Source of the DNA: Micavibrio sp.
GTDB lineage: Bacteria; Pseudomonadota; Alphaproteobacteria; Micavibrionales; UBA2020
Length of the DNA: 64,000 bases
Assembly (NCBI GenBank): GCA_028283745.1
Contig: JAPWJZ010000004.1
Coordinates: 491,512 to 555,511, forward strand
Direction of reading: 5' to 3'
Shown here: piece by piece, positions 53,852-60,323 of the stretch
Position numbering within the stretch: position 1 is the stretch's first letter
How the letters are laid out: each line of letters begins with the position of its first letter
Program-made: the position numbers and the translations under genes
Notes under the pieces: generated by a model
Seen by the model: only the letters and a program-made list of their open reading frames with translations
Databases searched by the model: none
Told to the model about the DNA's origin: nothing

Positions 53852-55843
53852 TTAGTTCAGATACTCCGCCAGAGCCTTCATCCGCTTGGCGTCGGCAGGC
53901 TTGGCCTTCTCTGCCTGATGCAGCAGCCGCTCGCGAATCCGCTGCGTCTTGCGTGCGTCCTCTGCTCCCGGCGTATGGGCCTGATCCACAGCCGCCGTCA
54001 CGCGAGCCAGCTCCGCTCCGCTCAGCGCCTGCGAACGAGCCAGCTGATCCAGATACGCATGGGCCACCACCGGGGTCGAGGGCCACACCAACGGCTGCTG
54101 GTTCTGCACATTCAGCTCTTTGACCTGCACACTGGCCGCAGCGTCGATCTCATGCTGCGTCAGATACTTCGTCGGCTTCAGCTTCAGCACATCCAGACCA
54201 CGCGCAATCTCCGAGCCGTAGATGTAGCCGTTGTACCAGTAAGCCGACCAGTAACCGCCCAGCACCATCATCTTCGGGTTGATCGGTCCACGGTCAAAGT
54301 ACGCGATCTCGAACGGATGCTCGGGATCGGTAAAGTCCATCACCGAAATCCCGCCCTGATACCAGGACTGTACCTCGATATCCCGGCCCGGAACCGGCAC
54401 CAGGGAGCCATTATGCGCCACGCAGTTTTCCGTATCTCCCTGCGCCGCCGGCAGCTTGTAGTAGCTGGCCAGACTCAGCTTGTCGTCCTTCAAATGGAAG
54501 ATCGCATCCGCGCCCCACTTGTTCGGATCGTTCGGGCGGCAACGCGCTCCGATACCGCCGCCCCACTCATCGGTAAAGACCACCTTGCTGCCATCGTTGG
54601 AGAACGTAGCCGAGTGCCAGTACGCATAATTCGGATCGTTCACCGCATCCACACGCTTGGGATGGACCGGGTCCTTGATGTCCAGCAACAAGCCGTTGCC
54701 CGAGCATGCACCGGCCGCCAGCCCCAGCGCCGAGTACACCGTGATGTCATGGCACTGGTTCGTGTCCACATGCGCTCCCGGGTCCTTCTGCTCATGCGAG
54801 CCGCCGTTGTTCAGCCCGTTCAGCGCACCCGTGCGCGGGTCGATAAAGACGCGAGGGCTGGAAACAATCGCCGCCTGCTGCGGTGCCTTCAACGGCACCT
54901 TGATCACGTCAATGCGGAAGAGAGCCGTGTTCGGATCCTTGTCCGGAGACTCATCCGAACATCCTGCCAGCTCCTCGCTCTGGCGCACAAAACTTGTGCC
55001 CGAAACATACACATACACGTTGTCCGGGTCCTTCGGATCCACCACCAGCGTATGCGTATGCGATCCACGGCAGGTCTGCACCGCGGCTACCTGCTTCGGG
55101 TTCTGTATGTCGGAGATATCGAAGATGCGCACGCCGCGGAACCGCTCCTTCTCCGTCGGCGGATGATGCGTCTTCTTGCTCTCTTCCATCTGCGCTTCGG
55201 TCGGCGCCGGGAAGGCCTGCGTCCCGCAGTCCAGACGGCCGTTCGGCATCTCAACCGAGACGAACATTAGGTTGCCGTATACCGAAACATCTCCCTGTCC
55301 GCCGGGACAGACCATCGTCGTCAGCAGCTTCGTCTTCGCCGGATCGGCAATGTCATAGATGCTCACACCATAGAAGTTGCCCTGGAACAGATGTGTCCCC
55401 TGAAACGCAAAGTCCGAGTTGGCATAGGCCAGCTGCGCAATCACCGGGCGCAGCGAAGCAGGCATCTTCGACGGGTCGGATACGCCCAGCGTATGCAGCG
55501 TGCTCGTCACACGCGCATCGTCGGGCAAGGTCGCATCCAGACGAAACGCCTCCTGCTTTTTCAGAAACGCGACGTGCTCCATACCGAACGCGGCTTCGCC
55601 TGCGTCGTACATCCCCGGCTTCAGCGTATAGCGCGGGTCTTTGGTATCGGATCCCACCATCCCTGCGGGCAGCGGCGGAGCTGGCTTCGGGACAAACTCA
55701 TCCATCTCATCGGTCGGCGTCGGCTTTGCCGCCGCCTTCGCCTCCGGTTTGGACTCCGGCTGGCTGGCCGTTTGCGCAAACGCGCTCACTGAAGCCACAA
55801 GCAACGCCGCCCCTGCGAGGCGTGCATACGGACGAAGCGTCAT
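53852..55843 (-). CDS. Secreted LVIVD-repeat (beta-propeller-like) protein
   Basis: Signal peptide; repeats such as GVSIYDIADPAKTKLLTTMVCPGG, GVRIFDISDIQNPKQVAAVQTC, GLLLDIKDPVHPKRVDAV, GISVMDFTDPEHPFEIAYF. Confidence 0.85.
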   Translation of the reverse strand: MTLRPYARLAGAALLVASVSAFAQTASQPESKPEAKAAAKPTPTDEMDEFVPKPAPPLPAGMVGSDTKDPRYTLKPGMYDAGEAAFGMEHVAFLKKQEAFRLDATLPDDARVTSTLHTLGVSDPSKMPASLRPVIAQLAYANSDFAFQGTHLFQGNFYGVSIYDIADPAKTKLLTTMVCPGGQGDVSVYGNLMFVSVEMPNGRLDCGTQAFPAPTEAQMEESKKTHHPPTEKERFRGVRIFDISDIQNPKQVAAVQTCRGSHTHTLVVDPKDPDNVYVYVSGTSFVRQSEELAGCSDESPDKDPNTALFRIDVIKVPLKAPQQAAIVSSPRVFIDPRTGALNGLNNGGSHEQKDPGAHVDTNQCHDITVYSALGLAAGACSGNGLLLDIKDPVHPKRVDAVNDPNYAYWHSATFSNDGSKVVFTDEWGGGIGARCRPNDPNKWGADAIFHLKDDKLSLASYYKLPAAQGDTENCVAHNGSLVPVPGRDIEVQSWYQGGISVMDFTDPEHPFEIAYFDRGPINPKMMVLGGYWSAYWYNGYIYGSEIARGLDVLKLKPTKYLTQHEIDAAASVQVKELNVQNQQPLVWPSTPVVAHAYLDQLARSQALSGAELARVTAAVDQAHTPGAEDARKTQRIRERLLHQAEKAKPADAKRMKALAEYLN

Positions 55844-56502
55844 AGTTTCTCCTTCTTTTCCTCAGACAACATCTGCTGCATTAATCGAATCTCCGCTCGC
55901 TGCGTGTTATCGACATCCGTCGCGAAGTTGAAGACATCCGCGTCCTGCCCTGCACCCGGCGCAGCAAACAGATCCTTCACCATCACCAGCGCACCGGTGT
56001 GGTGCTGGATCATCCCACTCAGGAACAGCCGGTCGAACTCCGCACCGCGCGCCTTGCGCAGTGCGTCCATCTGCTCCGGCGTCAGCATCCCGGGCATCGG
56101 GGCCATCGGCTTGCCGCTCATATCCATCTCCGGCATTCCCGGCATCGCCATGGAAATCGGCTGCCCACGCGACCGCAGCCAACGCTTCATCATCTCGATC
56201 TCATCGCTCTGGGAGCTATGAATCCTCGCTCCCAGCTGACGAACCTGCTCGTTGGTCGTATGCGACGGAATCAGCTCCGTCATCTCCAGCGCCTGGCCAT
56301 GGTGCATCACCATTCCCTGCATAAATTCGATGTCCTGCTGTGTCGCCGGATGTGCCACCGGATGCGTATCGGCCGGCAGCACATGCGTCGGCTGTCCCGG
56401 AGCGCCGGGCTGCACAATCTCAGACGACACCGGGGCTTGCCCATAAGCAAAGACAAACGTTCCCAGCAAAAGAAGCGACCCTGTAAATGTACGAAAAACC
56501 AT
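55840..56502 (-). CDS. Secreted DUF305-domain protein
   Basis: QQDIEFMQGMVMHHGQALEMTELIPSHTTNEQVRQLGARIHSSQSDEIEMMKRWL...MIQHHTGALVMVKDLF; ATGA overlap with the downstream LVIVD gene. Confidence 0.9.
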   Translation of the reverse strand: MVFRTFTGSLLLLGTFVFAYGQAPVSSEIVQPGAPGQPTHVLPADTHPVAHPATQQDIEFMQGMVMHHGQALEMTELIPSHTTNEQVRQLGARIHSSQSDEIEMMKRWLRSRGQPISMAMPGMPEMDMSGKPMAPMPGMLTPEQMDALRKARGAEFDRLFLSGMIQHHTGALVMVKDLFAAPGAGQDADVFNFATDVDNTQRAEIRLMQQMLSEEKKEKL

Positions 56503-57786: not shown

Positions 57787-59079
57787 CTACTTCTCCTGCA
57801 CCGTCTCTTCTACCTTCGCCGCCAGCGCTGCGGGCAGACGCTTGCCCACACCCGCACGCTGCGCGTGGTAGATCCCCGTCCGGCCTGAGAACAAATAACT
57901 GCCCACACACGCAATCGCGGCAAAGGCACCGGCCTCTGCGCCGAACAGCTCCACCGCCATCAGCGAAGAGGCGATCGGCGTATTCGCCGCACCGGCAAAG
58001 ACCGCGACAAACCCCATCCCCGCCAGCAGCGAGGCAGGCAGCGGCAGCACATGGCTCAGCGCGTTGCCCAGCGTCGCGCCAATGTAGAACAGCGGCGTCA
58101 CCTCTCCGCCCTTGAAGCCCGTCCCCAGCGTGACCGAGGTAAACAGCGACTTCACAAAGAAGTCCCACGGGTGCACCTGGTGCACAAACGACTCCTGGAT
58201 CACCGGCACTCCCAGGCCGATGTACCGCGTCGTGCCCAGCGCAAAGACCGCGCAGCTTACCAGCAGACCGCCGACCACCGGCCGCAGCTCAGGCCGTTTG
58301 ATCTTCGTCTTGGCCAGCGACGCCACCGCATGGGTCGTGCGCGCAAAGAACATGGCCATCAGCCCGAAGACCGCACCAGCAAGCATCGCAGTCAAAAGCC
58401 GCATCACGCTCAGCGCCGGCACCTCGGTCACGGTGTAAACCGTGTGGCCCATATGCACTGACTTCAACAGCGCATGCGTCACCATGTCCCCCGCAAACGC
58501 CGAGACAAAGCAGGGAGCGATCGCCTCGTAGCTCAGCGAGCCCACCGCCAGCACCTCCAGCCCAAAGACCGCACCGGCAAGCGGCGTGCCAAAGACCGAA
58601 GCAAACCCCGCCGAGATCCCTGCCATCAACAGAACGCGCCGCCCGGCCGCATTCAACCCCAGCGGCTTGGTCAACTGGTCTGCCAGCGACGCGCCCGTCT
58701 GGATCGCCGTCCCTTCACGGCCTGCGGAACCTCCGAACAGGTGCGTTAGAAACGTACCGATCAGAATGAACGGGGTCATCCTCAGCTTGATCGTCTTTTT
58801 CGGCTCATGCACCTCGTCGAGAATCAGGTTGTTGCCTGCCTCGACCTCTTTGCCGAAGTGCTTGTACAAGAGCCCGACGCATCCGCCTACCGGAGCCAGC
58901 AGCCAGATCATCCAGCGATGCGCCTCGCGCACCTCCGTAGCCACGTTGAGCGACCAAAGCAGCACCGCCGAAGCGGCCCCACCCATCACGCCCACAACCA
59001 CAGCCACCGGCGTCCAGCGCAGCAGCTCCCCCACCAGGGCAAACTGCGATCCATACTGCGTTTTCTGTGTTTGAGACAC
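57787..59079 (-). CDS. CLC-family channel/antiporter, probable fluoride exporter (CLC-F/EriC-F)
   Basis: GGSAGREGTAIQTGASLADQL; GTG start at 59079; preceded by a fluoride riboswitch-like element. Confidence 0.88.
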   Translation of the reverse strand: MSQTQKTQYGSQFALVGELLRWTPVAVVVGVMGGAASAVLLWSLNVATEVREAHRWMIWLLAPVGGCVGLLYKHFGKEVEAGNNLILDEVHEPKKTIKLRMTPFILIGTFLTHLFGGSAGREGTAIQTGASLADQLTKPLGLNAAGRRVLLMAGISAGFASVFGTPLAGAVFGLEVLAVGSLSYEAIAPCFVSAFAGDMVTHALLKSVHMGHTVYTVTEVPALSVMRLLTAMLAGAVFGLMAMFFARTTHAVASLAKTKIKRPELRPVVGGLLVSCAVFALGTTRYIGLGVPVIQESFVHQVHPWDFFVKSLFTSVTLGTGFKGGEVTPLFYIGATLGNALSHVLPLPASLLAGMGFVAVFAGAANTPIASSLMAVELFGAEAGAFAAIACVGSYLFSGRTGIYHAQRAGVGKRLPAALAAKVEETVQEK

Positions 59080-59084
59080 ACGTC

Positions 59085-59109
59085 CTCCTACGAGTGAATT
59101 TCGTAGGAG
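59085..59109 (-). promoter_or_regulatory. Putative SD-sequestering hairpin (riboswitch expression platform)
   Basis: Minus strand CTCCTACGA-AATTCAC-TCGTAGGAG; the right arm overlaps the SD AGGAGG just before the GTG start. Confidence 0.75.
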
Positions 59110-59172
59110 TCATCAGCACTCGCGTCCGTGTGTGGCGCGCGAGGCGGTTAGAGGCGGAACCCCATCGCCCTC
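59101..59172 (-). ncRNA. Fluoride riboswitch aptamer (crcB motif)
   Basis: Minus strand GGGCGATGGGGTTCCGCCTCTAACCGCCTCGCGCGCCACACACGGACGCGAGTGCTGATGACTCCTACGA: conserved GGCGAUGG...UUCCGCC...AACCGCC...GCUGAUGACUCCUAC blocks, CTCGCG/CGCGAG stem, upstream of a CLC gene. Confidence 0.92.
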
Positions 59173-59212
59173 TCGTTTGTAGCCTTAGCTTACCGCAACG
59201 ATTCTTCACGGC

Positions 59213-59244
59213 AAAGAGGCCACCCGTAACCGGATGGCCTCTTT
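59213..59244. terminator. Hairpin terminator downstream of mreB
   Basis: aaagaggcca...tggcctcttt, 10-bp stem with T-rich end. Confidence 0.75.
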
Positions 59245-59264: not shown

Positions 59265-60323
59265 TTAGTCGATCGAGATCTTGCGCAACAAGCGGAAGTC
59301 GCTCAGCATCTTGCCCGTTCCCAGCACCACCGAGGCCAAAGGATCGTCCGCGATAGAGACCGGCAGGCCCGTTTCCTCGCGAATGCGCTTGTCCAGGTTC
59401 TTGATCAACGCACCGCCACCCGTCAGCACAATGCCGCGGTCAGAGATATCCGCCGAAAGCTCCGGCGGAGTGCGCTCCAGCGCCACGCGAATCGCGTTCA
59501 TGATCGTCGCAATCGACTCACCCAGCGCTTCGCGAATCTCAGAGTCTTCAATGGTGATCGTCTTTGGCACGCCCTCAATCAGGTTGCGGCCCTTGATCTC
59601 CATCGTCAGCGGCTTCTCCAGCGGATACGCCGAGCCCAGCTCGATCTTGATCTGCTCAGCCGTGCGCTCGCCCACCAGCAGGTTGTACTTGCGCTTCAGG
59701 TAGGTCATCACGGCTTCGTCCATCTGGTTGCCGGCCATACGCACCGAGCGCGAGTACACGATACCCGCCAGAGAAATCACCGCAATATCGGTCGTTCCAC
59801 CACCGATATCGACCACCATGTTGCCGCCCGGCTCCGTAATCGGCAGACCGGCGCCGATGGCAGCCACCATCGCCTGCTCCACCAGATGCACTTCGCTTGC
59901 CTTGGCGCGGTACGCCGAGTCCATGACGGCACGCTTTTCTACCTGAGTAATCTCGGAAGGCACGCCGATCACGATGCGAGGATGCACCATCATCTTGCGG
60001 TTGTGCGCCTTCTGGATGAAGTAGTTCAGCATCTTCTCCGTCTGCTTGAAGTCGGCAATCACGCCATCCTTCATCGGCTTGATCGCGGCGATGTTGCCCG
60101 GCGTGCGACCCAGCATTTCCTTTGCTTCCTTACCAACCGCTTCCACCTCATTGGTCACCTTGTTGACCGCAATGATGGAAGGTTCGTTGACGATAATGCC
60201 CTTGCCGTGCGCGAAAACCAGCGTGTTGGCTGTACCGAGATCGATCGCCAGATCGCTCGAAAACAGCGAGAAGATGGACCGCATATTGCCGCGCCCGGGG
60301 CGCGAAGAAAAATTCGAAGACAT
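59265..60323 (-). CDS. mreB: Rod shape-determining protein MreB
   Basis: SDLAIDLGTANTLVFAHGKGIIVNEPSIIAVN...MLGRTPGNIAAIKPMKDGVIADF...VVDIGGGTTDIAVISLAGIV. Confidence 0.97.
   Translation of the reverse strand: MSSNFSSRPGRGNMRSIFSLFSSDLAIDLGTANTLVFAHGKGIIVNEPSIIAVNKVTNEVEAVGKEAKEMLGRTPGNIAAIKPMKDGVIADFKQTEKMLNYFIQKAHNRKMMVHPRIVIGVPSEITQVEKRAVMDSAYRAKASEVHLVEQAMVAAIGAGLPITEPGGNMVVDIGGGTTDIAVISLAGIVYSRSVRMAGNQMDEAVMTYLKRKYNLLVGERTAEQIKIELGSAYPLEKPLTMEIKGRNLIEGVPKTITIEDSEIREALGESIATIMNAIRVALERTPPELSADISDRGIVLTGGGALIKNLDKRIREETGLPVSIADDPLASVVLGTGKMLSDFRLLRKISID

Follow-up and report, generated by a model that had tools for sequence, protein, structure and literature searches.

The leader of a predicted CLC-F fluoride/proton antiporter gene on the minus strand of the window (the whole 64-kb stretch of DNA analysed here) carries a fluoride riboswitch aptamer whose 3' end is also complementary to the Shine-Dalgarno (SD) region of that gene. 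We propose, with a probability of roughly 0.88, that this leader is a translational fluoride ON switch, in which F- would hold CUCC in the aptamer pseudoknot and leave the SD free. The features on which the analysis is based are the following.

59265-60323, mreB
59213-59244, minus strand, perfect 14-bp hairpin between mreB and the riboswitch, resembling an mreB terminator with a weak U-run (fold -26.2 kcal/mol)
59187-59214, minus strand, candidate weak promoter TTGCCG-N16-TAAGCT (by eye, in a position analogous to TTGACG-N-TATCTT in related leaders)
59097-59178, minus strand, fluoride riboswitch aptamer RF01734 (cmscan)
59169-59162, minus strand, conserved block GGCGATGG (sequence)
59159-59153, minus strand, conserved block TTCCGCC (sequence)
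59149-59143, minus strand, conserved block AACCGCC (sequence)
59117-59103, minus strand, conserved block GCTGATGACTCCTAC (sequence)
59153-59169, minus strand, P1 stem-loop GGCGATGGGGTTCCGCC (Rfam alignment and pairing read from the sequence)
59163-59158, minus strand, 5' pseudoknot strand GGGGTT in the P1 loop (sequence)
59116-59145, minus strand, P3 stem GC-CTCGCG / CGCGAG-(T)-GC with a long loop (Rfam alignment and MFE fold)
59101-59111, minus strand, dual-use strand GACTCCTACGA (sequence and helix search)
59109-59101, minus strand, helix arm CTCCTACGA, the aptamer 3' end (sequence)
59100-59094, minus strand, 7-nt helix loop AATTCAC (sequence)
59093-59085, minus strand, SD-containing helix arm TCGTAGGAG (fold and helix search)
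59089-59084, minus strand, SD AGGAGG (sequence, and homologous leaders with similar spacing)
59083-59080, minus strand, 4-nt spacer ACGT between the SD and GTG (sequence)
57787-59079, minus strand, CLC-F fluoride/proton antiporter gene, 430 aa, GTG start at 59079-59077 (PF00654, PDB 6d0j, GNN and GREGT)
55840-56502, minus strand, gene for a DUF305 / CopM-like metallochaperone-type protein, a few genes beyond the CLC-F gene

The aptamer, the gene that it precedes and their origin

When all Rfam families were searched with Infernal cmscan, the only match in the 64-kb window was the fluoride riboswitch RF01734, at 59178-59097 of the minus strand (51.4 bits, E 2.6e-11, against a gathering score of 34); the match spans the full model (1-64/64), and this element is also the only fluoride riboswitch counted across the assembly. 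The covariance model therefore bears out the sequence-only reading, which had placed a fluoride riboswitch at 59085-59172 of the minus strand and had quoted conserved crcB-motif blocks that are all found there on direct reading; as to the interval, the element is present, and the aptamer proper runs slightly past those limits. The class pseudoknot pattern, GGaGUU in the P1 loop with GACUCC in the 3' strand, is present, and a pseudoknot of six pairs is predicted from the sequence between GGGGTT (59163-59158) and GACTCC (59111-59106), two of the pairs being G.U, one internal and one terminal. In the Rfam alignment the invariant blocks UAACCGC and GCUGAUGA flank P3. The CLC-F start codon lies 18 nt past the end of the aptamer match.

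The gene product matches PF00654 with an E value of 1.4e-71, and three CLC-type fluoride/proton antiporter chains head its PDB matches (E about 1e-60). Among solved structures the closest in sequence is the F-/H+ antiporter 6d0j (E 2.1e-60, residues 23-410 of 430), which scores 208 bits, while the highest-scoring CLC outside this group, 3nd0, reaches 34 bits (E about 1e-7), and the NCBIfam Cl- channel equivalogs match the protein solely far below their cut-offs. The protein contains AGNNLI and GREGTAIQ; GNN and GREGT, which we take to be the signature residues of CLC-F, are invariant across six aligned proteins. Given the PDB ranking and these motifs, the gene product is by homology a CLC-F fluoride/proton antiporter. 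It had been described as a CLC-type fluoride channel; the CLC-F identity stands, and antiporter is more exact than channel in view of 6d0j. The homology to the CLC-F antiporters 6d0j, 6d0k and 6d0n is near full-length (E 2e-60), whereas the window protein belongs to a different branch; almost all of the proteins closest to it, at 63-70% identity, carry Acidobacteriaceae labels (Granulicella, Terriglobus, Acidipila). The next CLC-F relatives, at 45-57% identity, come from Burkholderiales, Xanthomonadales and Acetobacteraceae.

The MreB encoded in the window is 90-97% identical to Acidobacteriaceae MreB, versus 54-58% to the MreBs of genomes classed as close kin of the assembly; the assembly holds two other mreB genes and has a stated contamination of 6.83%. 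These identities and the extra mreB genes indicate that the assembly is probably mixed and that this contig of it is very probably of acidobacterial origin. The 14-bp hairpin on the mreB side of the riboswitch suggests that mreB and the riboswitch-CLC-F unit are transcribed separately. A consensus scan found no sigma-70 promoter, and we infer that TTGCCG-N16-TAAGCT may act as a weak one.

A helix between the aptamer end and the Shine-Dalgarno sequence

The arms CTCCTACGA and TCGTAGGAG form a helix of 9 bp with a 7-nt loop (-12.7 kcal/mol on its own). The minimum free energy fold of the 119-nt leader includes this hairpin, the leader is more stable than its own shuffles (z -2.25), and a helix as good as that of the window was obtained in 0 of 200 dinucleotide-shuffled downstream regions. 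Some of this complementarity is to be expected in any case, because the invariant CUCC of the aptamer pairs with any GGAG SD; independent evidence comes only from the inner UACGA/UCGUA part. The helix that buries the SD is unlikely to be due to chance. GACUCC (59111-59106) overlaps CUCCUACGA (59109-59101), the partner of which is UCGUAGGAG (59093-59085); CUCC is thus common to the pseudoknot and the SD helix, and the two helices are mutually exclusive.

Twelve other acidobacterial genomes have the same arrangement ahead of CLC-F, which together with the window gives a set of 13 leaders (the window and L007-L018, with riboswitches assigned by Rfam except in L010, where this was done by eye). 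An aptamer-end/SD helix of 5-9 bp with a loop of 3-9 nt is found in 13 of 13, each with p <=0.05 against shuffles. For a broader comparison, 126 leaders were anchored on the first GGAG-like core and their 3' arms were permuted among them 2000 times; the mean contiguous Watson-Crick extension was 1.82 in the observed set versus 1.46 in the permuted ones, the maximum of the 2000 permutations being 1.62. The first position past the invariant CUAC shows A-T, G-C, C-G and G.U types in the 126 leaders (permutation p 0.008), and in the 13 acidobacterial CLC-F leaders alone the first non-invariant position is the sole departure from permutation (p 0.027), values that are indicative and not strict probabilities because the sampled leaders are mutually related. 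In Gluconobacter leaders the helix is rewritten whole as TTCCTGTCA/TGACAGGAG, with the SD still inside. The varied non-invariant pairs and the Gluconobacter rewrite indicate that the helix is conserved as pairing and not as sequence alone.

From these data, what the sequence-only reading had seen in this leader can be upheld: the exact 9-nt complement 7 nt downstream, its overlap with the SD and the 4 nt to GTG are as it described, and the SD-sequestering switch that it proposed is predicted by folding, kept in all 13 acidobacterial CLC-F leaders and accompanied by compensatory variation at non-invariant positions.

Proposed mechanism and rival explanations

During transcription, the CLC-F mRNA leader would adopt the fluoride aptamer fold. 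With F- (and Mg2+) bound, the 3'-end GACUCC would be kept paired with GGGGUU of the P1 loop as a pseudoknot, so that the downstream SD AGGAGG would remain open and the antiporter would be translated. Without F-, the SD strand UCGUAGGAG would oust the P1 loop from CUCCUACGA, and the 9-bp hairpin formed by these two strands would hide the SD. Translation is the likely controlled step because the hairpin contains the SD and no U-run follows it, and F- binding should free the SD because both the pseudoknot and the SD helix need CUCC to form. Strand exchange in which the pseudoknot strand becomes part of the expression platform has been reported for fluoride riboswitches (PMC11077080), and translational fluoride riboswitches are named as recognised members of the class (PMC13273304). 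For the window RNA, we infer F- binding, the direction of control, strand displacement and the kinetics.

In the fluoride riboswitch family the same aptamer strand forms the base of terminator hairpins (PMC2864571; PMC11077080), and the window hairpin could be read, by analogy with Bacillus cereus, as a terminator or attenuator of transcription instead of a structure that hides the SD. This design does seem to exist among relatives: in L022, a more distant CLC-F relative, the aptamer strand lies in a terminator-like hairpin, GCCTACG/CGTAGGC, followed by TTTTTTT, and attenuation seems likely in some proteobacterial CLC-F relatives. In contrast, the window hairpin has the SD inside it and is followed by GACGTGTGTCTC, without a U-run, and directly afterwards by the start codon. 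Reading of the sequence together with a terminator scan revealed no intrinsic terminator between the aptamer and the start codon on the minus strand, nor was any terminator-like site found at the leader on that strand. The candidate terminator was ruled out for this hairpin on the absence of the U-run, and we regard attenuation of this gene as most unlikely. The stability of the hairpin (9 bp, -12.7 kcal/mol) and the internal G.U of the pseudoknot would both be expected if the helix were a static translational damper, over-stable and attached to an aptamer that no longer switches because the wobble has weakened its pseudoknot. However, the aptamer scores high over the whole length of the Rfam model, the intact relatives L008, L009, L014, L016 and L017 also have a GATGGGGTT loop with this wobble, and in B. 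cereus a pseudoknot wobble was reported to matter for switching (PMC11077080), so that a frozen leader is very unlikely; within a working ON switch, the strong hairpin and the G.U pair could bias the balance towards OFF. As for control in the reverse direction, with fluoride stabilising SD sequestration, no supporting point was found; the CUCC shared by both helices predicts that binding frees the SD, and fluoride riboswitches are reported to raise the expression of resistance genes (PMC9495176), which leaves this reading a practically negligible chance.

The translational ON switch proposed here resembles the fluoride riboswitches of Pseudomonas syringae and Burkholderia pseudomallei (translational in PMC13273304) in combining the RF01734 aptamer with control of translation and no intrinsic termination. 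It appears to differ from them in being acidobacterial and in its very short platform, in which 7 nt separate the aptamer arm from the SD arm and 4 nt the SD from the start codon. The transcriptional fluoride riboswitches of B. cereus and Thermotoga petrophila have the same aptamer, and their 3' pseudoknot strand likewise switches over to a hairpin downstream (PMC11077080), whereas the window hairpin would hide the SD and, without a U-run, is not a terminator. The window protein also shares with the known CLC-F antiporters its place in the riboswitch-controlled EriC class (PMC7266159). Translational fluoride riboswitches are already known (PMC13273304), and the window adds an acidobacterial example of a very short one, about 100 nt from the aptamer start to the start codon; the invariant end of its aptamer also serves as an anti-SD. 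SD-type fluoride platforms are less studied than terminator-type ones; in whole-riboswitch covariation work, the fluoride model was built on terminator-type platforms (PMC13273304).

Fluoride riboswitches in related genomes

The related leaders, more than 100 in number, offer a natural series on how helix length tunes ligand-gated strand displacement. In L129, L131, L133, L146 and L147 there is no SD near the aptamer end, and a separate hairpin, TTCCAGC...GCTGGA, follows the aptamer; these leaders likely use another expression platform.

RF01734 matches are present in 213 of 250 genomes from the family to which the genome of L007 belongs. A second fluoride riboswitch is located at 4210-4275 of L007, on the minus strand, ahead of a crcB-like gene that faces the CLC-F gene from about 1 kb downstream, and both CLC-F and crcB-like systems are found in the genome of Granulicella sp. 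S190. The crcB leaders of Acidobacteriaceae often carry, between the SD and the start codon, the sequence GAACTCCATCG, the exact complement of the aptamer sequence CGATGGAGTTC; examples in which it lies between the SD and GTG are L123, L130, L136, L153, L175, L190 and L205. At least 8 nt complementary to the aptamer 5' strand were found in 29 of 69 crcB leaders (including L132, L140 and L150, where the 8-nt match is another one and falls within the coding start) versus 0 of 20 CLC-F leaders and 0 of 33 others; in the window leader this second anti-aptamer strand is absent, the longest match being 3 nt. The exact pattern searched with a longer gap was present in 21 of the 250 family genomes, and a reversed control pattern in none. 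With a shorter gap it was found in 0 of 396 genomes of the phylum, a search in which the gap was too short for some and the right clade thinly sampled. No description of such a strand was found in the open-licence papers searched.

Unconstrained folds of L130, L136, L175 and L205 are nested, the second strand pairing with the aptamer 5' strand and the SD with CUCC; GAACTCCATCG would therefore allow an OFF state by nested double strand exchange in crcB leaders. We slightly favour the view that the fluoride regulon of Acidobacteriaceae is mainly translational and builds two kinds of OFF state around a single aptamer: the short hairpin between aptamer end and SD seen in the window, for CLC-F and other leaders, and in crcB leaders of relatives a nested double exchange in which GAACUCCAUCG, between the SD and the start codon, would also capture the 5' strand CGAUGGAGUUC and dismantle P1 and the pseudoknot.

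Fluoride riboswitches also occur in clusters (L211-L213, L214, L215), in genomes with up to 18 matches. On one contig of one genome (L211-L213), 14 of them lie within 57 kb and precede genes for a pyrophosphatase, CLC-F, an outer-membrane efflux protein, an NADH-dehydrogenase-like subunit, an MFS protein and others; in a second genome (L215) they are placed before enolase, MutS-like and pyrophosphatase-like genes. Cyclopropane-synthase-like and transporter genes are also found downstream of clustered riboswitches.
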